Below are positions 1-11,171 of a stretch of 64,000 nucleotides of DNA, piece after piece. Location: the NCBI GenBank assembly GCA_902531515.1, contig CACAEJ010000001.1, positions 62,001 to 126,000 of the forward strand. The letters run 5' to 3'. Position numbers and translations under genes: made by a program. The notes beneath the pieces are model-generated. The model searched no databases. It saw only the letters and a program-made list of their open reading frames with translations, and had not been told where the DNA came from. Positions within the stretch are counted from its first letter, which is position 1. Each line of letters starts with the position of its first letter. This DNA comes from an uncultured Pseudohongiella sp. Lineage in GTDB: Bacteria; Pseudomonadota; Gammaproteobacteria; Pseudomonadales; Pseudohongiellaceae.

Positions 1-629
1 GCATATGCACTCTTATGCTTGCTTCGTGCACGAGCACCACCGTAGATGAATTTAGACAAGGTGAGACTGGCATTGAGAGTGACGAATCTGTAGTGATTCT
101 TGGGCGCCGTCAGGCAAGTGACTTCGAGACAAAATCAGATTTTGTGGAATGCGTAGGGGATCGAATGAGTCAGGGAGAAAATGCGATATCGATTATTCCC
201 GAGAGAGAATTTATTGATGCAATGTTTCCTTGGTTTGAACCACGAACCGCACCATTGCGTGCAAGCGACCTCGAACAGTTGCTTGCCGAGGATGTGGTTG
301 CCCAAAAGATGAATGAATTCGGTATTAGGTACATGGTTTGGGTCGAAGGATTTACTGAGACAACTGGCAGAACAGGTTCAATATCTTGTACAGTAGGCCC
401 TGGAGGAGGGGGCTGCTTCGGCTTCGGTACCTGGGAAGATGATGCTAATTTCGATGCGAGAGTTTGGGATGTGATTTCCTTAAGAAATGTAGGAACTATT
501 AATACAGATGCAACCGGTCAATCTTATCTTCCAGCACTCGTTGTTCCTATACCGTTGATTGCTAGGGTAGAAACGAATGCTTGTAATCGTCTCGCAGCCC
601 AACTAAAAGACTTTGTGAATGGCGAGTAA
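1..629 (+). CDS. Putative lipoprotein, 5' end outside the window
   Basis: The frame is open from the first bases of the window and reads ICTLMLASCTS before the rest of the protein. LASC is a good lipobox, so the visible ATG at 15 is probably inside a signal peptide whose start lies upstream; the gene is treated as 5'-partial. The mature part is about 200 residues with a Gly-rich turn (GPGGGGCFGFG) and a few further cysteines. I recognise no family. It ends three bases before the M48 protease gene on the same strand, so the two are probably co-transcribed and may both act in the periplasm or at a membrane. The lipoprotein call is supported by the lipobox only; the function is unknown. Confidence 0.6.
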   Translation, partial: ICTLMLASCTSTTVDEFRQGETGIESDESVVILGRRQASDFETKSDFVECVGDRMSQGENAISIIPEREFIDAMFPWFEPRTAPLRASDLEQLLAEDVVAQKMNEFGIRYMVWVEGFTETTGRTGSISCTVGPGGGGCFGFGTWEDDANFDARVWDVISLRNVGTINTDATGQSYLPALVVPIPLIARVETNACNRLAAQLKDFVNGE

Positions 630-632
630 GTC

Positions 633-2174
633 ATGCTTAACCTTAGAATTAGAACTGGCTCTACTATGAGAAATAACAGCTGTAATGAGAAAGTAGAATT
701 CCCTTGTACTGTTAGAATAATTCTTCCTATGATGTGCTTGTTGACTTTTCTTCCTATCATAAATTCTTGCGCGGTTAATCCAGCGACGGGCAGTACAAAT
801 TTAGTACTCATGTCAGAGAACAGGGAAAAAGAAATAGGTCTTGAGGAACATGAAAAAGTACTTGATAGCATGACGCTTTTTGAAGATGAAAAATTGCTCA
901 ATTATGTTCGGGATGTGGGCAATCGAGTAGCTCGAGTCAGTCATCGACCAGACTTGGAATATCAGTTCCATATTATAGATAGTCCAGAGATAAATGCCTT
1001 TGCTCTGCCAGGAGGGTATGTATACATAAATCGCGGATTACTAACTTATTTAAACTCAGAGGCAGAGCTCGCTGCTGTTTTAGCTCATGAGATTGGCCAT
1101 ATAACTGCAAGGCATGCTGTTCAGCAACAGGCGAGGGGTGCTTTGGCTAGAGGGGCTGCTGTGGCGGGCGGGATTGTTGCTGGAATTGCAACAGGGTCCG
1201 GTTACGCAGCATCTCAAATCAGTGAAGTTGCTTCTATTTGGGCTCAGACCGGTTTAAGTGGTTTCGGTAGAGATAACGAACTTGAGGCAGACAGCCTAGG
1301 AGCCGAATATCTCTTGGCTGCTGGTTATGATCCGGCAGCCGTAATAGATGTGATTACTGTATTGAAGAATCAAGAGGATTTTAATCGCTTAGTAGCTGGC
1401 GGGGGAGGTACCTATCATGGGCTTTTTGCCACCCACCCTCGGAATGACAAACGTCTTCAGGAGGCTGTTGCACAAGTAGGTAGACTAGAGACTGATGAAG
1501 TCAAGATGATTGATGAAGAAGTATTCAGAATTAACCTTGACGGATTAATTATCGGACAAAGCAACGCTTCTCAAATGACAGACACACGAAATCGGTACTA
1601 TCAGGATTTGCTTGGATACACTGTAGTTTTCCCAGATGATTGGGAAATTGAAACGACTACGACCACGGCAACCGCAAAAGACTCAACGTTAGGATCTCTT
1701 CGGATAGAAGTGCAGCGCCTTCAAAATAGCGTTGACCCTCGATCTTTTATTCAAAATGTTTTGGGCATACGGAATCTCACAAAGTCAGAGGGTTTGTCTC
1801 AATTTCGCCTTCAAGGCCACACTGGAGTCACGGAAAGTGACAGTGCCGGTATCAAAGAGCGGGTTGCTGTTATTTATTTAGGCCCTAGGGCTTTTATCTT
1901 TAGAGGTGACATAGTTCCTAATGCCAACGAAGCAGAGGTAGACCAGATGATGCTATCTTCAATTCGATCTTTTCGCGCAATTCAAAGAGGAGAGGTGGCT
2001 ACTGGCGGGGAGCTAAAAATAAAATTTGTTCAAGCGACAGAATTCTTTGACTTTTCGGTCGTATCTCAGAATAGTAAGATAACCAACTTCCCCGAGGAAA
2101 CCCTGCGATTGTTAAATGGTTATTATCCTCGCGGTAATCCTGAAGAAGGTGAGTGGATAAAACTCGTCGAATAA
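633..2174 (+). CDS. M48-family zinc metalloprotease, probable lipoprotein
   Basis: The zinc site is AHEIGH with His152, Glu153 and His156, and the third ligand is probably in NELEADS near Glu218. This is the layout of M48 peptidases of the BepA/YfgC and LoiP type, which act on outer-membrane proteins in the periplasm. The N terminus has a hydrophobic segment ending in NSCAVNP, compatible with a lipoprotein signal although Asn at -2 is unusual. The C-terminal half (about residues 300-513) is not an obvious TPR region; it resembles the extended C-terminal part of large uncharacterised M48 proteins. The start could also be the ATG at 666. It follows the putative lipoprotein gene by three bases. 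The protease call is secure; the substrate is not known. Confidence 0.88.
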   Translation: MLNLRIRTGSTMRNNSCNEKVEFPCTVRIILPMMCLLTFLPIINSCAVNPATGSTNLVLMSENREKEIGLEEHEKVLDSMTLFEDEKLLNYVRDVGNRVARVSHRPDLEYQFHIIDSPEINAFALPGGYVYINRGLLTYLNSEAELAAVLAHEIGHITARHAVQQQARGALARGAAVAGGIVAGIATGSGYAASQISEVASIWAQTGLSGFGRDNELEADSLGAEYLLAAGYDPAAVIDVITVLKNQEDFNRLVAGGGGTYHGLFATHPRNDKRLQEAVAQVGRLETDEVKMIDEEVFRINLDGLIIGQSNASQMTDTRNRYYQDLLGYTVVFPDDWEIETTTTTATAKDSTLGSLRIEVQRLQNSVDPRSFIQNVLGIRNLTKSEGLSQFRLQGHTGVTESDSAGIKERVAVIYLGPRAFIFRGDIVPNANEAEVDQMMLSSIRSFRAIQRGEVATGGELKIKFVQATEFFDFSVVSQNSKITNFPEETLRLLNGYYPRGNPEEGEWIKLVE

Positions 2175-2263
2175 CTAATAAAGCCGATAGACTCTATGAG
2201 AATCTGCGTCTAGCTAGAGGTGCGAAACGTCGGATAATCACTATTAAATAAATACAACTGACT

Positions 2264-2513
2264 ATGGCTGAAAAATATAGAGAAAAAGTTTTAATAGTTG
2301 GTCCTGCGTGGGTTGGTGACATGGTTATGTCTCAAGCCCTTTATCGAGCACTTAAAAAAATAAATCCTGAAACTCATATCTCGGTATTGGTTCAAGGAGG
2401 ACTTAAGCCATTGTTTTAAAAGATAGTGCCCATTTGGCCATCTTCGGTGCCTTACAGAGATTAAACTTGAGCGAGTACTTGGAGCTATAGCTTCTTTTAA
2501 TTTAAGCACTTAA
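2264..2513 (+). pseudogene. waaF: waaF relic: ADP-heptose:LPS heptosyltransferase II with internal deletion
   Basis: This fills most of the gap before waaC. From the ATG at 2264, 51 codons read MAEKYREKVLIVGPAWVGDM and on to QGGLKPLF before a TAA at 2417. That is the recognisable N terminus of WaaF (IxVIGPSWVGDMxMSQxLYR). From 2427, in another frame, 28 codons read CPFGHLRCLTEIKLERVLGA and stop at 2513. That matches the C-terminal CxFGHxxCLxxIxxxRVL end of WaaF. About 270 internal codons are missing and the two ends are out of frame, so no heptosyltransferase can be made. Position upstream of waaC is the usual place of waaF. The identification rests on remembered family motifs; a search with a WaaF profile would confirm it. 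Confidence 0.82.
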
Positions 2514-2528
2514 TAAGGAAGAATTGAA

Positions 2529-3482
2529 TTGCGTATTCTAATAGTTAAAGTATCCTCTTTAGGAGACATTATTCATACCCTTCCTGCTGTAACTGACGCT
2601 CAGAGAGCCCATCCAGGATTGACGTTTGACTGGGTTGTCGAGGAAAATTTTGTTGAAGTGCCCTCTTGGCATCCGGCCATTAACAAGGTAATTCCTGTAG
2701 CCATAAGACGCTGGCGCTTGAATCTTTTCAAAACTTATTTAAATCGCGAGTTTCTATCATTTAAGGAAATGCTACAGGGTGTTCATTATGATTTGGTGAT
2801 AGACGCGCAAGGGCTTATAAAGAGCGGAATTATTAGTCGCCTCTCCCGAGGGCTCACAGTTGGATTAAGCAATAGTACTATTAAGGAACCATTAGCGAGC
2901 CTTTTTTATAACAAGGCTTATTCCGTTTCGTGGGAAGAACATGCGGTCGATCGAGTCCGGCAGCTTTTCTCTAGGGCTTTAAATTACGAGTACCATCAAT
3001 ACCCACTTGATTATGGTATTGAGTTAGAAAAAGGTAATGTGAATCATACTGAGGGGAAAAGAAATCATATTATCTTTCTGCATGGGACTACAAGAGCAAG
3101 TAAATACTGGCCCAAGGAAAAGTGGCGTTACCTTGCGGAGTTAGCCACAGGATATGGATATGATGTTGTTCTACCTTGGGGGACATCGAATGAAAAAAAG
3201 AGAGCAGAATTCATTGGCGAAGGAAATCTTAACGTTAAGATCCTTGGGAAAAAGTCTCTTTCAGATATCGCTACGGTTATTATTAGTTCGAAGGGCGTTA
3301 TCGCTGTGGATACCGGACTAGGCCACCTCGCAGCGGCATTATCCAAATCAACAGTCTCTCTTTATGGGCCAACAGATCCGGCATTATGCGGAACTTACGG
3401 CCGAAATCAGATACATTTAAGACTAGAAAATGACCCAAACGTTGTATGGGATAAATTTGAAAAACTAACAAATAGTTTATAG
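2529..3482 (+). CDS. waaC: ADP-heptose:LPS heptosyltransferase I
   Basis: This is a GT9-family enzyme that adds the first heptose to Kdo2-lipid A at the inner face of the cytoplasmic membrane. The N terminus RILIVKVSSLGDIIHTLPA is the family signature. The C-terminal nucleotide-sugar region shows FLHGTTRASKYWP, then IAVDTGLGHLAAAL and SLYGPTDP. Length (317) fits WaaC. The start is TTG at 2529, preceded by TAAGGAAG; no ATG fits better. It lies 15 bases after the waaF relic and is followed at 155 bases by waaG, in the usual core-LPS gene order. Confidence 0.93.
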   Translation: MRILIVKVSSLGDIIHTLPAVTDAQRAHPGLTFDWVVEENFVEVPSWHPAINKVIPVAIRRWRLNLFKTYLNREFLSFKEMLQGVHYDLVIDAQGLIKSGIISRLSRGLTVGLSNSTIKEPLASLFYNKAYSVSWEEHAVDRVRQLFSRALNYEYHQYPLDYGIELEKGNVNHTEGKRNHIIFLHGTTRASKYWPKEKWRYLAELATGYGYDVVLPWGTSNEKKRAEFIGEGNLNVKILGKKSLSDIATVIISSKGVIAVDTGLGHLAAALSKSTVSLYGPTDPALCGTYGRNQIHLRLENDPNVVWDKFEKLTNSL

Positions 3483-3637
3483 AGTTTCGATGCTCAGCTA
3501 AGAGCATGCTACGGACGCCAAAACGTCATGCTAATGATGCGGCTCACACTAGAAAGGAGATTATATGACTACATTCTGTTAGATCTTACTATGCCAACGG
3601 CTGATTTTTCGACTGATTACAGTATTAGATTTTTTCT
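3483..3637 (+). other. Intergenic waaC-waaG with an orphan ribosome-binding site and five-codon ORF
   Basis: There is no gene of normal size here. AAAGGAG at 3553-3559 stands at ideal distance from an ATG at 3565, but the frame reads only MTTFC before a TAG at 3580-3582. A second short frame from 3591 (16 codons) ends on a TGA overlapping the waaG ATG. The heptamer CATGCTA occurs twice about 20 bases apart. This could be the decayed start of another gene or a translational leader for waaG; nothing in the sequence decides between them. Confidence 0.35.
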
Positions 3638-4765
3638 ATGAAAATAAGTTTCCTGATTTATTCATATTTCCCTTATGGCGGCCAGCAGCGTGATTTTTTT
3701 CGCATAGCAGAAAAATGTGCACAAAGAGGAAATCAAATAGACGTCTACACATTATCTTGGCAAGGTGAAGTCCCAAAAAATTTCAACGTCATAATAGTTC
3801 CCATCAACGCGCTTACGAATGTAGGGCGTTACAGAAAATATACTTCTTGGGTCACTGATCATTTGCGACAGACCGAGCCGAGTTTCGTTGTTGGCTTCAA
3901 TAAGATGCCTGGTCTCGATCTTTATTTTGCTGCCGATCCATGTTTTCTCGAAAAAGCTGATAAACAAAGAGGCTTTTATTATAATTTAACTCCTCGCTTC
4001 GGGCATTTTGCGAAGTATGAAAAAGAGGTTTTTGGAAAAAATCAAACCACACAGATTATGATTCTGACCGAGCAACAAAGGGAAGGTTTTGAAAAATATT
4101 ATCCCGGTTGCGCATCGCGCATGCATTTATTGCCTCCGGGAATTGATTCTGATCGAAGACTAGATGACACCTTTAAAGAGAGACGCTTTGAATTTAGAAA
4201 AAAATTAAGCGTCACAGACGATCAGTTTGTCATACTACAAATTGGTTCAGGTTTTAAAGTAAAAGGAGTAGATCGGTCTCTCAAGGCGATAGCATCACTG
4301 CCGCTTGAGCTTAGACGAACGATTAAATTCGTTTTGGTTGGGAAAGACAACCCAAAGCAGGTGTTAAAGTTAGCGCGGAATTTAGGAATACTAGATAGGC
4401 TAATGATTGTGTCAGGTAGCGACGATATTCCCAGTTTTTTAGCAGGCTCCGATCTAATGCTCCATCCTGCTTACAGAGAAAGTGCAGGGCATGTGTTGTT
4501 GGAGGCAGCGGTGTCTGGGCTTCCAGTGTTGACGACATCTACCTGCGGGTACGCTTTTCATGTAGAAAAAGCTGGTTCTGGTTTGGTTTGTTCAGAACCT
4601 TTTCTTCAAAATGATCTCAATCAAAAGTTGGGCTCGATGATTAGAAATATCGATAATGCAAATTGGTCAGGCAATGGTTTAAATTATGGAAGGAATTGTG
4701 ACTTATACTCTTTACATCTAGAAGCAGCAAATTTGATTGACAAATTTGCGAGAAATATGTCGTGA
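3638..4765 (+). CDS. waaG: LPS core glycosyltransferase WaaG (GT4)
   Basis: The protein follows Enterobacterial WaaG along its whole length: YFPYGGQQRDFFRIAE near residues 10-27, VGFNKMPGLDLYFAADPC around residue 85-100, and the LPPGID segment. The C-terminal GT4 donor-binding motif is ESAGHVLLEAA. WaaG transfers the first outer-core hexose from a UDP-sugar onto heptose II of the inner core at the cytoplasmic membrane. That acceptor would be made by WaaF, which is a relic in this window, so WaaG either uses another acceptor here or depends on a heptosyltransferase elsewhere. The stop is seven bases before the waaP ATG, indicating an operon. Confidence 0.93.
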   Translation: MKISFLIYSYFPYGGQQRDFFRIAEKCAQRGNQIDVYTLSWQGEVPKNFNVIIVPINALTNVGRYRKYTSWVTDHLRQTEPSFVVGFNKMPGLDLYFAADPCFLEKADKQRGFYYNLTPRFGHFAKYEKEVFGKNQTTQIMILTEQQREGFEKYYPGCASRMHLLPPGIDSDRRLDDTFKERRFEFRKKLSVTDDQFVILQIGSGFKVKGVDRSLKAIASLPLELRRTIKFVLVGKDNPKQVLKLARNLGILDRLMIVSGSDDIPSFLAGSDLMLHPAYRESAGHVLLEAAVSGLPVLTTSTCGYAFHVEKAGSGLVCSEPFLQNDLNQKLGSMIRNIDNANWSGNGLNYGRNCDLYSLHLEAANLIDKFARNMS

Positions 4766-4772
4766 GACGTTT

Positions 4773-5558
4773 ATGCTATATTTGAATGCAGAGCTTAAAA
4801 ATTTTTTTTCAGACTCTGATCCTTATGAAATTTTAAAGGATTTGAACGGCACCGTTTACAGACAAGTTCAAACACGTAAGACATTTCGGTTCGAGCATAA
4901 TGGTAAAAGCTATTTTGCAAAGGTTCATACTGGTGTTGGCTGGATAGAGATATTCAAGAATTTTATCCAGCTTAAGAAGCCAGTTTTAGGAGCAAGAGAT
5001 GAGTGGATCGCATTAAATTTTCTAAAACAAATTCCAGTTAGTACAATGAACGTGGTAGCGTATGGAGAAAAGGGTTGGAACCCTGCCAAACTAAAATCAT
5101 TTGTTATCACTGAAGAGCTAAAGCAAACAATTAGCTTAGAAGATTACTGTCTTAATTGGTTAGACGCAAAGCCTTCACTTTCTATTCGAAGAGCACTGAT
5201 ACGCGAAGTCGCTAATTTTGCATCTGCAATCCATGCGCATGGTGTTTGCCATCGAGATCTGTATTTATGTCATTTCCTGTTACACAAGGATGGAGACTAT
5301 TTTCCAAAACTTTCGTTAATTGATCTACATCGAGCATTACTTCGAAAAAAATTGCCAAAGAGATGGATTATAAAAGATATAGCAGGCCTTTATTATTCAG
5401 CTATGGGGATAGGTCTTTCCAAGCGAGATCTTTTGCGTTTCATTCGCCAATACACCATTCTAAACGAGGGATTGACGTATAGGGCCAACAGGAGGTTTTG
5501 GAAGATAGTAGAAAGCAAAGCGGACAGTATGCATAAAAAGTTAGGGCCTGCGAGGTAA
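4773..5558 (+). CDS. waaP: LPS core heptose I kinase
   Basis: WaaP phosphorylates the first heptose of the inner core, using ATP, in the cytoplasm; the charge stabilises the outer membrane. Family-typical stretches are visible: EVxxLxGxVYRxVxTRxTxRFxxxGKSYF-like N terminus, KPVLGARDEW, YGEKGWNP, ITEELKQTISLEDYC, and the kinase catalytic loop CHRDLYLCHFLLH followed by LIDLHRA. The ORF track starts at a TTG inside waaG (4737); I chose the ATG at 4773, seven bases after the waaG stop, which gives 261 residues, matching the family. The next kinase gene starts four bases after the stop. Confidence 0.93.
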   Translation: MLYLNAELKNFFSDSDPYEILKDLNGTVYRQVQTRKTFRFEHNGKSYFAKVHTGVGWIEIFKNFIQLKKPVLGARDEWIALNFLKQIPVSTMNVVAYGEKGWNPAKLKSFVITEELKQTISLEDYCLNWLDAKPSLSIRRALIREVANFASAIHAHGVCHRDLYLCHFLLHKDGDYFPKLSLIDLHRALLRKKLPKRWIIKDIAGLYYSAMGIGLSKRDLLRFIRQYTILNEGLTYRANRRFWKIVESKADSMHKKLGPAR

Positions 5559-5561
5559 GTT

Positions 5562-7013
5562 TTGAAAATCTACCGGTCTGCAGAATTAGTTCGACTTGGA
5601 AGGCACATTTCCACACCATATCTTTTAGAGATCTATGATAAAAATTCCTTAGAAACTATAGAGGTTAGGGAAATTCTGCGAATTGTTCCAAAACGACGGT
5701 TGACCGCTAAAGCAGAATGGCGGGATAGCAGCGTTATCGTAAAATTGTTTTTCTCACCAAGCCACTGGAAGCGGAATTTGTCTCGCGATTTATCAGGGAT
5801 TAATCTCCTTATAAAGAGAAACCTTCGAACTCCCGCTATATTGCATGAAACGCAAATTGCAGGGGGACGAGGTGCTGCGTTAATTTTGGAATATATTAAC
5901 GATGGAAAAACTATTAGCGAATGTCTTGATGAGGCTAAAACAAATAGCGAGAGGCGGCGGTGGTTATCCCTTGCGATTGGCTCAATAGCTGCTTGCCACC
6001 GCCAAGGTCTATGGCAACCAGACATTCATATGAAAAATTTCTTAGAATCAGATAACCAAGTTTATTACCTAGATGGCGGTGATATTCGGGCGCTTGAAAG
6101 ACCTCTTCCGAGCGAATTAGCATCACAGAACCTGGCGTTATTTTTTGCACAGTTTACGGTTGACAACGATGAGAATATTGAGCGCCTGCTAAAAGAGTAT
6201 CAGCTAGAGAATAAAAACTTACATACCAAAGATTTAAAAGGCATGTTTTCTGCAGTTAAGGAAGCTAGGGCTCAGAGAATTTCAAGCTATGAGCGAAAAT
6301 TACTTAGATCAACTACCGCTCATCGCAGGGTCAGGTCGCTAGGTAAACTAGCTGTTTATGATAGAGAAATCGATTCTTCCACTCTAGACAATCTCATATC
6401 AGACCCAAATCGTTATATCCAGAAAGACAGGTTATTAAAGGATGGTAACTCTACAACGGTAGCTGAATTTATATTTGAGAATAAGAGATATGTTGTAAAA
6501 AGATATAATTTGAACTCGCTGTGGCAAAGTGTTAAGTATCTTTTCAAAATGAGTCGAGCTGCCCGTTGCTGGAGAAGTGCCTCGATATTGAGTATGTTAG
6601 GTGTTCACACTCCAAAACCTTATATGTTTATAGAAGACAGGTGGCTCTGGTTTTTAAGAGCTAAATCTTATTTTGTCAGCGAAAAAATAGAGGCCGCAAA
6701 TCTTCTAGAACATATAAAAGCCAAAGGTCTGAGGCAGAACGAATTAGAAGCGATCATAATCTCTTTCAGACTGCTTTTTAAGATTATGATTGATTATAAA
6801 ATTAGCCATGGCGACATGAAAGCTTCAAATTTTCTCTATTGGAACAACAAGTTAGTAGTTTTAGATCTTGATGGGATGCGAAGACACCGAAGCAAAAGGG
6901 TTTTTAAAAAGGCAATAAAAAAAGACTTCGATAGATTTTTGAAAAATTGGAAAGGAACTGAGTATGAACAGCCCTTTGGAAATATAATTGATGAGTTGGA
7001 AACTTCTTTTTAG
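5562..7013 (+). CDS. Two-domain LPS core kinase (tandem WaaP/Kdo-kinase-like)
   Basis: Two kinase-like domains are fused. The first (about residues 1-230) has a catalytic-loop-like segment WQPDIHMKNFL and a metal-loop-like YLDGGDIRAL. The second (about 270-483) has SHGDMKASNFLYW and VLDLDGMRRHR. This resembles the large 'lipopolysaccharide kinase' that accompanies waaP in the Pseudomonas core cluster (the PA5006 type). It probably phosphorylates Kdo or heptose of the inner core; the exact sugar is not deducible. The start is TTG at 5562, four bases after the waaP stop, with GAGGTAAG overlapping that stop as ribosome-binding site. Both domains keep an Asp in the catalytic loop, so neither looks obviously dead. 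Confidence 0.75.
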   Translation: MKIYRSAELVRLGRHISTPYLLEIYDKNSLETIEVREILRIVPKRRLTAKAEWRDSSVIVKLFFSPSHWKRNLSRDLSGINLLIKRNLRTPAILHETQIAGGRGAALILEYINDGKTISECLDEAKTNSERRRWLSLAIGSIAACHRQGLWQPDIHMKNFLESDNQVYYLDGGDIRALERPLPSELASQNLALFFAQFTVDNDENIERLLKEYQLENKNLHTKDLKGMFSAVKEARAQRISSYERKLLRSTTAHRRVRSLGKLAVYDREIDSSTLDNLISDPNRYIQKDRLLKDGNSTTVAEFIFENKRYVVKRYNLNSLWQSVKYLFKMSRAARCWRSASILSMLGVHTPKPYMFIEDRWLWFLRAKSYFVSEKIEAANLLEHIKAKGLRQNELEAIIISFRLLFKIMIDYKISHGDMKASNFLYWNNKLVVLDLDGMRRHRSKRVFKKAIKKDFDRFLKNWKGTEYEQPFGNIIDELETSF

Positions 7014-7020
7014 TTTTTAT

Positions 7021-8538
7021 TTATGGATCTATTCTTTTATAAATAGCAAGTTGAATATCTCGATTGCTAGGGAACGCTGCCTGCAGTTCAAGGTAGGGTT
7101 TAAGAGAATTTTGATTCAAGATTCGCGACATTTCATAATTCATCTCCAATATAAGTAAGTCGTCCGGCTTTAGTTCATGTATTTCACTCTCTGAAATTAT
7201 TCGCGTCACCCTGTCATAATTTTCGACTCTACCACTGAAATAAGCGATAGCATGATTATTTGTCGCCACTTGAGGATTTAGAGGGCTTTCTGTTTCCAGC
7301 CAAGCTAGCGATTCATTAATATAACTTTTTGAAGAGCCGAAGCTTATAAACGAGTCAAAGGCGCAATAGCCAAAAAACAATATTAAGGTCCTCATCCTTA
7401 AATTTTTCGATGAACTCTTCCGAAATTCATTAATTAAATTATCAAGAATCAGTGGTACAAATAGGATTAAAACTAAACAAAAGATCATCGAATAACGAGC
7501 CGAAACAAATTTTGTGACAAAAATAAATCCGAAAACTATAGCTAGGTTGGTAAATAAAAAGATAATAACCGGAGCTAAGAAAATTCTTTCCAATCTTACT
7601 AGACGTTTAATAGCGCCATACGCCAGCACCCAAAAAAAAGGCCCGCCAATACCTTCAAATAACTTAACTATCAATATCGCGAATAACCCTGCGATCAAAA
7701 ATAAGCCGAGGTAAGGACCAGAGTACGTCATTGCATATTCCCCAAAGATTCGGCTGCTCAATGAGTAACTTTCAGCTTCACTGGGATTTAAAATATTGTT
7801 CAAAAACGGTTCATAGACGGAGATAAACTTTTGGAAAACGGATATAACGTCTATTCCGATTAATCCAATCATTAAAACTACCACGGCCAATGAAAAAAAT
7901 ATGATTGCCATACATTTTAGTACTATCCTATATCGTATCCCACTTTCATACCTGCTATCGAGAAGTAGGCATATTGGTAGGGAGAATAAATAAACTATCG
8001 CCTCTGCTCTGAAGAACGAGGCTAGAATAATTGAAAGGCAAAAACAGATAAAATTTGGTAGATGATTTAGTTTCACAAACAGTAAAAATTGCCATAATGC
8101 AAAAAGACTAAGTGCCCACATTGCAATGTCTCGAATAATATCAGATCTTAACTCATTCAATGGAGGGTATAAGAGGATGCAGATTGCGGCTAAGATGGAA
8201 ACGGTTTTCGAATTGTTAAAGCAATTTACAATACTAATAAAAGAATAAACCAAAACAGATAGAAAGAAAGCATTTATTAATTGTGCTGCGGTTAACAGGT
8301 CTATACCTGTCTTACTGACAAACGCAATAAGTAACGAATAGCTCGCCCATGAATAGTACTGTATTGCTGCGTTTATACCATCACTCAGAGCGATTTCTGC
8401 TGTACGAATATATGCATAGGCATCGTCATTAGGCAGACCAGGATTAAGCAAAGTAAAAAACGAAACCAGCAGACTAATCAGGGCTCCTAAGATTCGCACA
8501 TCAAGATGCCTGAATTGTTTTTTATTGGTTAGGTCCAC
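7021..8538 (-). CDS. Polytopic membrane protein, probable GT39/ArnT-like glycosyltransferase
   Basis: The protein has 505 residues, roughly ten or more hydrophobic segments and a soluble C-terminal tail. The first extracytoplasmic loop carries PGLPNDDAYAYIRTAE. Acidic residues in that loop are the hallmark of lipid-linked-sugar transferases of the GT-C fold (PMT, ArnT and relatives). The name is therefore inferred from topology and this motif, not from a full family match. It starts with GTG at 8538, 23 bases downstream of lpxL on the same strand, and lies within the LPS island. A role in decorating lipid A or core with a polyprenyl-linked sugar is plausible. It converges with the double kinase gene, with seven bases between stops. 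Confidence 0.5.
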   Translation of the reverse strand: MDLTNKKQFRHLDVRILGALISLLVSFFTLLNPGLPNDDAYAYIRTAEIALSDGINAAIQYYSWASYSLLIAFVSKTGIDLLTAAQLINAFFLSVLVYSFISIVNCFNNSKTVSILAAICILLYPPLNELRSDIIRDIAMWALSLFALWQFLLFVKLNHLPNFICFCLSIILASFFRAEAIVYLFSLPICLLLDSRYESGIRYRIVLKCMAIIFFSLAVVVLMIGLIGIDVISVFQKFISVYEPFLNNILNPSEAESYSLSSRIFGEYAMTYSGPYLGLFLIAGLFAILIVKLFEGIGGPFFWVLAYGAIKRLVRLERIFLAPVIIFLFTNLAIVFGFIFVTKFVSARYSMIFCLVLILFVPLILDNLINEFRKSSSKNLRMRTLILFFGYCAFDSFISFGSSKSYINESLAWLETESPLNPQVATNNHAIAYFSGRVENYDRVTRIISESEIHELKPDDLLILEMNYEMSRILNQNSLKPYLELQAAFPSNRDIQLAIYKRIDP

Positions 8539-9740: not shown

Positions 9741-11171
9741 ATGAAACTCGAGATGCCAAAATTTCAGAAGGCCAGGCTTTTGGTTGTCGGAGATATAATG
9801 CTCGATAGATATTGGCACGGGGCCGCCTCTCGTGTGTCGCCGGAGGCTCCTGTACCTGTAGTGTGTGTTGATAGTAGGGAAGGCAGACCTGGAGGTGCAG
9901 CCAACGTGGCTCTAAACATCTCTGCGCTTGGCTCAGCTGCTCGTTTGATTGGGATTGTCGGAAAAGATGAAACCGGTGAAGAGCTGCATTCCCAACTTCA
10001 AGCGGCTGGTGTTTACTGCGATTTCCTATGGTCTGCTAAAAAGCCGACAATCACTAAATTACGAGTAATAAGCCAGCATCAACATTTAATTAGACTAGAT
10101 TTTGAACAATTGTTTGAAAATCAAGATGTGGTAGGCCTCTTTGAAAAGGTTGAAGAATTAATTCAAGACTCTGACTTAATAGTTTTTTCAGACTATAACA
10201 AAGGAGCTCTATGTGAAATGCATAAACTTATAGAACTGTGCCGCTCACAGAATAAACCGATAATTATCGATCCAAAAGGGGCTGATTTTCAAAAGTATAG
10301 GGGAGCGACAATAATTACGCCTAATCTATCTGAATTTGAGTCCGTTGTAGGCAAGAGTAAAAATGAACAAGAGCTTGTTGATAGAGGACTTGAGTTAGTC
10401 AAAGATTTATCTTTGGAAGCACTTTTGATTACTCGAGGCGAGTCTGGGATGACTTTAATTCGGCCGAATTCGCCCGAGTTGCATTTGCCTGCCCGAGCTC
10501 AAGAGGTATTCGATGTAACTGGGGCGGGTGATACTGTAATTTCGGTCCTGGCGGCAGCCATGGCATCTGGAGAGAGTATTTCAGACGCAACTGCCCTTGC
10601 CAATGTTGCCGCGGGTTTAGTAGTAGGTAAGTTAGGGACCGCTGCGATAAGTGGCCCTGAGTTACGCCGCTCAATTTTGGAGGAGCACGGCTGGGGTGGC
10701 GGAATAATGACGGCGCAGCAGCTCTCATTCGCAGTGGCAGATGCTAAAGAACATGGCGAGAAGATTGTATTTACAAACGGTTGTTTTGACATCATTCACG
10801 CAGGCCACGTTGGATACTTATCAGAAGCAAAAAAGTTGGGTGACAAATTAATAGTAGCGATCAACGATGATCATTCGGTAAAAAAGGTTAAAGGTGTGGG
10901 TCGTCCAATCAATCCTGTAGAGCGTAGGATGGCGGTTTTAGCAGGATTGGAAGCTGTCGACTGGGTTGTTTGTTTTCCTGAGGAAACTCCTGAGGAACTG
11001 TTAAGAAAGTTAAAGCCGAATGTTTTAGTCAAGGGCGGGGACTATACCTTAGACAAAGTGGTAGGCGGAGAATACGTTAAGTCCTACGGCGGCGAAGTAA
11101 AAGCTCTTGAATTCCTTGACAACTGCTCCACTTCAGCGATAGTAGAAAAAATGAAAAAAGTGGAAAATTGA
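9741..11171 (+). CDS. hldE: Bifunctional heptose-7-P kinase / heptose-1-P adenylyltransferase
   Basis: HldE makes ADP-D-glycero-beta-D-manno-heptose, the donor for WaaC. The N-terminal ribokinase-like domain (about 1-320) shows GDIMLDRYWHGAASRVSPEAPVPV-type opening, RPGGAANVALN and the anion-hole motif DVTGAGDTV. The C-terminal nucleotidyltransferase domain (about 340-476) shows FTNGCFDIIHAGHVGYL and VKGGDYT. Length (476) equals the usual fused enzyme. The start ATG is preceded by GGAGAG. Its retention shows that heptose is still put into LPS, although waaF in this island is deleted. Confidence 0.96.
   Translation: MKLEMPKFQKARLLVVGDIMLDRYWHGAASRVSPEAPVPVVCVDSREGRPGGAANVALNISALGSAARLIGIVGKDETGEELHSQLQAAGVYCDFLWSAKKPTITKLRVISQHQHLIRLDFEQLFENQDVVGLFEKVEELIQDSDLIVFSDYNKGALCEMHKLIELCRSQNKPIIIDPKGADFQKYRGATIITPNLSEFESVVGKSKNEQELVDRGLELVKDLSLEALLITRGESGMTLIRPNSPELHLPARAQEVFDVTGAGDTVISVLAAAMASGESISDATALANVAAGLVVGKLGTAAISGPELRRSILEEHGWGGGIMTAQQLSFAVADAKEHGEKIVFTNGCFDIIHAGHVGYLSEAKKLGDKLIVAINDDHSVKKVKGVGRPINPVERRMAVLAGLEAVDWVVCFPEETPEELLRKLKPNVLVKGGDYTLDKVVGGEYVKSYGGEVKALEFLDNCSTSAIVEKMKKVEN

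Follow-up and report, generated by a model that had tools for sequence, protein, structure and literature searches.

Native waaF, the heptosyltransferase II gene of this marine gammaproteobacterium, very probably owes its decay to a small insert that carries foreign copies of waaF and of hemH, the gene for ferrochelatase, and that took the place of the two native genes, which are not linked to each other. What is left of it lies at positions 2264-2513 of the window, the whole stretch of 64,000 nucleotides analysed here, and is by alignment a pseudogene; its foreign counterpart lies on another contig, C20. The host assembly (G000), in which the window forms part of contig C1, is a MAG of 1.92 Mb in 81 contigs that is 67% complete, and among the close loci used for comparison within the genus, several belong to records titled 'uncultured Pseudohongiella'. 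Judged by the flanking DNA, the closest relative of the host is SAT1358 (genome G084, locus L050), which has an intact waaF; a second congener, TMED139 (genome G001, locus L033), in which waaF is likewise intact, enters the argument at several points. The features concerned are the following.

633-2174, + strand: M48-type peptidase gene forming the left flank, collinear with L050 (84% nucleotide identity over 14-2413) and with L033 (75%)
2264-2413, + strand: 5' remnant of the native waaF gene, covering codons 1-49 with the GPAWVGDM motif (85% nucleotide identity to the 5' end in L050; TIGR02195)
2411-2413, + strand: deletion join at TTG, with 794 bp absent and the frame shifted (alignment with L050)
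2417-2419, + strand: stop of the 51-aa left frame (ORF reading)
2412-2513, + strand: 3' remnant of the native waaF gene, roughly its final 33 codons and the stop (79% nucleotide identity to the 3' end in L050; TIGR02195 positions 309-337)
2424-2426, + strand: in-frame TAG in the 3' relic (comparison with L050)
2529-3482, + strand: waaC (heptosyltransferase I), intact, 317 aa (PRK10964/TIGR02193 match)
3483-3637, + strand: intergenic gap of TMED139 type (similar gap after waaC in L033; the genes overlap in L050)
9741-11171, + strand: hldE, intact (PRK11316, 724.5 bits)

The relic consists of two collinear pieces of waaF beside waaC, at the syntenic position. Its left piece matches the heptosyltransferase II model TIGR02195 over model positions 1-43 of 339 (E=2.4e-12) and its right piece over positions 309-337 (E=0.0025, with the stop entered as X), while at the DNA level the two are 85% identical over 239 nt (E=4e-75) and 79% identical over 118 nt (E=2e-22), respectively, to the intact waaF of SAT1358. 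Forced pairwise alignment places the relic edges at L050 4568 and 5363, so that exactly 794 bp (L050 4569-5362, codons 50-314) are missing, and TTG, the triplet found at the join in the window, stands at both edges of the deleted segment in the intact gene. As 794 is not a multiple of 3, the waaF frame is shifted at the join; the left ORF (2264-2419, 51 aa) meets its stop codon just past it, and the right piece reads CFKR, a stop, CPFGHLRCLTEIKLERVLGAIASFNLST and a final stop in another frame, whose end is at 2511-2513. The in-frame TAG at 2424-2426 occupies a place where SAT1358 has a sense codon, and so reads as a second, independent lesion, by which decay would have extended past the deletion. 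Codon differences from L050 are mostly synonymous in what has been retained (17 synonymous and 4 non-synonymous on the left, 13 and 6 on the right), which suggests that the loss was recent relative to the split from SAT1358.

The original prediction, made from the letters of the window alone, had described both ends of waaF, the frame change and the stops, all of which are as it said, and had proposed a single internal deletion of about 800 bases, a model that alignment to intact relatives bears out. A WaaF match to each half had been set beforehand as its test, and both halves match TIGR02195 and the L050 gene significantly and collinearly. What it missed was the intact foreign waaF on C20, next to a foreign hemH whose native counterpart is also a relic, which makes displacement likelier than simple loss; to conclude from the relic that the WaaF step has been lost would probably be mistaken. 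The lesion itself is peculiar to this genome among those compared: almost every congener in which the region is assembled has an intact waaF next to waaC, and a DNA search of 84 congeners found the two ends joined in no other genome.

A whole-genome search recovered only two intact Glyco_transf_9 (GT9) genes in the host assembly, waaC in the window and one on C20, whose product of 337 aa matches TIGR02195 over its full length with 378.9 bits (cut-off 134.6), compared with only 46 and 58 bits for the heptosyltransferase I and III models, and aligns over its entire length with the structure of WaaF from E. coli (PDB 1PSW). Set against this family, the C20 protein is a full-length member, whereas the relic in the window derives from the family, is frameshifted, carries an additional stop and has lost residues 50-314. 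The C20 protein is 37-47% identical to the genus's own WaaF, finds its best match among 369 genomes of the class at about 46-47% identity and stands, in a tree, on a very long branch apart from the genus clade, which together mark its gene as a foreign heptosyltransferase II gene. It also lacks the Cys-rich CxxxxCxxGHxxC tail of the genus's own WaaF, its tail resembling the enterobacterial one. No close relative of it was found in any collection searched, viral contigs included, and a viral origin was for this reason set aside; the matches in phage records are to enterobacterial-type waaF at about 45% and are apparently misfiled or contaminating sequence. Composition is uninformative as proof of foreign origin (GC 0.40 v 0.41). 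Contamination as the source of the gene was also rejected, since C20 runs collinear with SAT1358 as far as the insert and resembles the genus beyond it, GC is normal and native hemH is a relic as well.

Adjoining this gene on C20 is hemH (372 aa; TIGR00109, 206.8 bits, cut-off 124.6), which by sequence comparison is foreign too. Its product is 32-38% identical to the native type, the one found in most congeners, and at most 41% identical to those of the other genomes sampled in the phylum, the best ordinary cellular match being at about 40%. It is 78% identical to the product of a gene on a T4-like viral contig (L211, IMGVR_UViG_3300025137_005831), where genes for a phage primase and a DnaB-like helicase are among the neighbours, and 79-81% identical to those of genes in two congeners, G010 and G085. 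In these the foreign-type gene lies at another locus and has no waaF beside it, and no other hemH was found in either genome, so that they are possibly a second case of hemH displacement. Its neighbours there are class I aldolase-like and photolyase-like genes, between which it occupies L227 8384-9502 in G085 and L228 8692-9813 in G010. The viral contig carries, besides its full-length ferrochelatase gene, a TonB-receptor-like gene and a carbamoyltransferase gene. Ferrochelatase genes carried by marine phages have been described as phrog2954 (PMC11561400, PMC3620275), and the present case is like these in that a ferrochelatase-type gene sits on a marine viral contig; the HemH discussed here, however, is full-length (370-372 aa) and gave no PHROG match, and thus lies outside the phrog2954 family.

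The native hemH has suffered the same type of lesion as native waaF. Where congeners have an intact hemH, contig C2 of the host carries a relic (L168 6248-6549, about 149247-149548 of the contig) in which both ends of the gene are kept: a left part of 249 nt, 80% identical to the 5' part of TMED139 hemH and interrupted by an in-frame TAA, is followed after a jump of 754 bp by the last 53 nt, with a repeat of about 7 bp (TGCAAAA) at the join. The two native genes are unlinked and on different contigs, and their foreign counterparts are neighbours. Nothing else speaks as strongly for displacement as this correspondence, or as strongly against contamination and assembly error.

The foreign pair occupies an insert of about 3.3 kb at a tRNA-Asn gene (C20 5869-5943), and the rest of C20 reads as native DNA around it: positions 2-6086 are collinear with SAT1358 at 81% identity, and the right side of the insert matches both TMED139 and SAT1358. 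A direct repeat (C20 5926-6136 and 9207-9396, about 212 and 190 bp, 80% identical) flanks the insert, starting inside the first 18 nt of the tRNA gene, and between its copies only an ORF of 117 aa, hemH and waaF are found. TMED139 provides the empty site, in which tRNA-Asn and its upstream region run straight into a cold-shock-protein-like gene, and SAT1358 has different DNA at the same tRNA. No integrase was found within the insert, which may have entered by site-specific integration at the tRNA or by homologous recombination through the repeat. In tRNA-associated islands the usual integration site is the 3' end of the tRNA. The insert resembles such genomic islands and tycheposons in its small cargo beside a tRNA, in a direct repeat that takes in a portion of the tRNA and in the other DNA that the nearest relative has at the same tRNA; it differs from them in that its repeat lies over the 5' end of tRNA-Asn and the sequence upstream of it, and in that no integrase was found in the insert.

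In the sequence of events that we propose, foreign waaF and foreign hemH would have arrived together in the insert at tRNA-Asn; native waaF, freed by the foreign copy, would then have lost 794 bp at the 3-bp repeat and been eroded by a further stop, while native hemH, released by the same insert, would have lost its 754-bp middle between the repeats of about 7 bp. We infer that the foreign genes arrived before the native losses and that the two came in a single event, and the family models predict that both are functional. The occurrence of foreign-type hemH in G010 and G085 with no adjoining waaF indicates that the pair itself may have been put together stepwise. With hldE kept, the supply of ADP-heptose would be retained, and since waaC is also kept and C20 encodes a predicted heptosyltransferase II, addition of the second heptose most likely continues in the cell.

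The history of waaC bears on one of the other ways in which the relic could have arisen. Most of window 1-8400 is closest to SAT1358, and the segment at about 2501-3500 is closest to TMED139 (0.72-0.78 v 0.62-0.74), the nearest relative switching right after the relic, near 2514-2528. In the WaaC tree the gene of the window is sister to that of TMED139 with a support of 100/99, and the TMED139-type gap at 3483-3637 is probably the right end of the exchanged tract. Taken together, identity profile, tree and gap suggest that waaC, in a tract at 2514-3640, was probably exchanged within the genus from a TMED139-like lineage, so that the two sides of the relic have no one common history. It is therefore conceivable that the waaF deletion came with this tract by homologous recombination, independently of the insert on C20, as the position of the switch and the waaC tree might suggest; we regard this as unlikely, for the relic is closer to SAT1358 than to TMED139 at either end, its tail as far as 2513 included, which places the deletion outside the imported tract and led to its rejection as part of the waaC exchange, and TMED139 itself has an intact waaF. 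The Cys-rich tail segment of the SAT1358 waaC is absent from that of the window, which is a short form.

Simple loss offers another account, in which waaF was deleted to leave an inner core with one heptose, maybe under selection by phages that recognise the inner core, and in which the gene on C20 is unrelated or adds another sugar. For E. coli, waa genes are reported to change under pressure from phages, a pattern with which such a loss would agree, and the exchange of waaC next door could be read the same way. The C20 protein, however, scores as a heptosyltransferase II far above the models for I and III and aligns with E. coli WaaF over its whole length, hldE has been kept, and the parallel hemH relic and the paired foreign genes fit displacement better, so that we consider simple loss improbable. 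An assembly artefact, in which the MAG would be collapsed or chimerically joined at the deletion and the cell would have an intact waaF, has the incompleteness of the source in its favour, but appears very improbable: a 3-bp repeat at the join is too short to mislead an assembler, the tail carries its separate second stop, the same pattern recurs in the second displaced gene on another contig, a replacement waaF exists and no further intact Glyco_transf_9 gene emerged from the whole-genome search. Displacement of native waaF and native hemH by the insert on C20 is accordingly the reading that we prefer.

Odd phylogenies are the usual grounds for inferring displacement by a foreign homologue, because the native copy has vanished. 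The present case is like xenologous gene displacement, in which a laterally acquired homologue at a different locus takes over from the native gene, in that an intact foreign homologue is present and the native homologue has been inactivated in place, with intact homologues above the TIGR02195 and TIGR00109 cut-offs, a foreign phylogeny and an empty site in TMED139. It is distinguished by involving two unlinked native genes whose foreign counterparts stand side by side in one small insert, and by native relics that can both still be recognised, each consisting of two ends on either side of one internal deletion. A gene relic by itself is ordinary; a pair of displaced genes whose relics both survive is moderately interesting: two native relics, two adjacent foreign replacements and, in a relative, the empty site can all be seen, which makes the order and mechanism of displacement testable. 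A ferrochelatase lineage common to a T4-like virus and bacteria, moreover, provides the sole intact hemH that was found in this bacterial genome. A rather improbable reading, which we suggest only tentatively, is that core genes in foreign copies, partly shared with phages, are carried by small tRNA-associated inserts of the genus, which stabilise themselves by displacing unlinked native genes. If this were so, the tRNA-Asn site would be a route for viral-type metabolic genes into core cell functions, and the insert would become indispensable by making the native copies redundant, their relics remaining.

Short repeats around the insert prompted consideration of an origin as integron cassettes, which was rejected when no integron integrase was found: TIGR02249 is absent from the 67%-complete host MAG and exceeds its cut-off only in G012 among 11 genomes. 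At least one of the repeat types is, from its translation, a shared signal-peptide coding segment. A repeat of 57 nt (L143 6490-6546, and five copies in L222) appears to encode a common signal peptide with which several small exported proteins of the genus begin, proteins that otherwise differ. An element of about 45-52 bp (CATACCCAGAAGATACTATAGATAT..GGCTAA..AAGGAAG) occurs in arrays at a spacing of 1.5-3 kb in G026 and on C20, with copies at L143 9010-9061, 9823-9889, 11876-11940 and 12166-12211 and six copies in L222; it is possibly a promoter or a recombination site, and one copy lies about 90 nt upstream of the foreign waaF.
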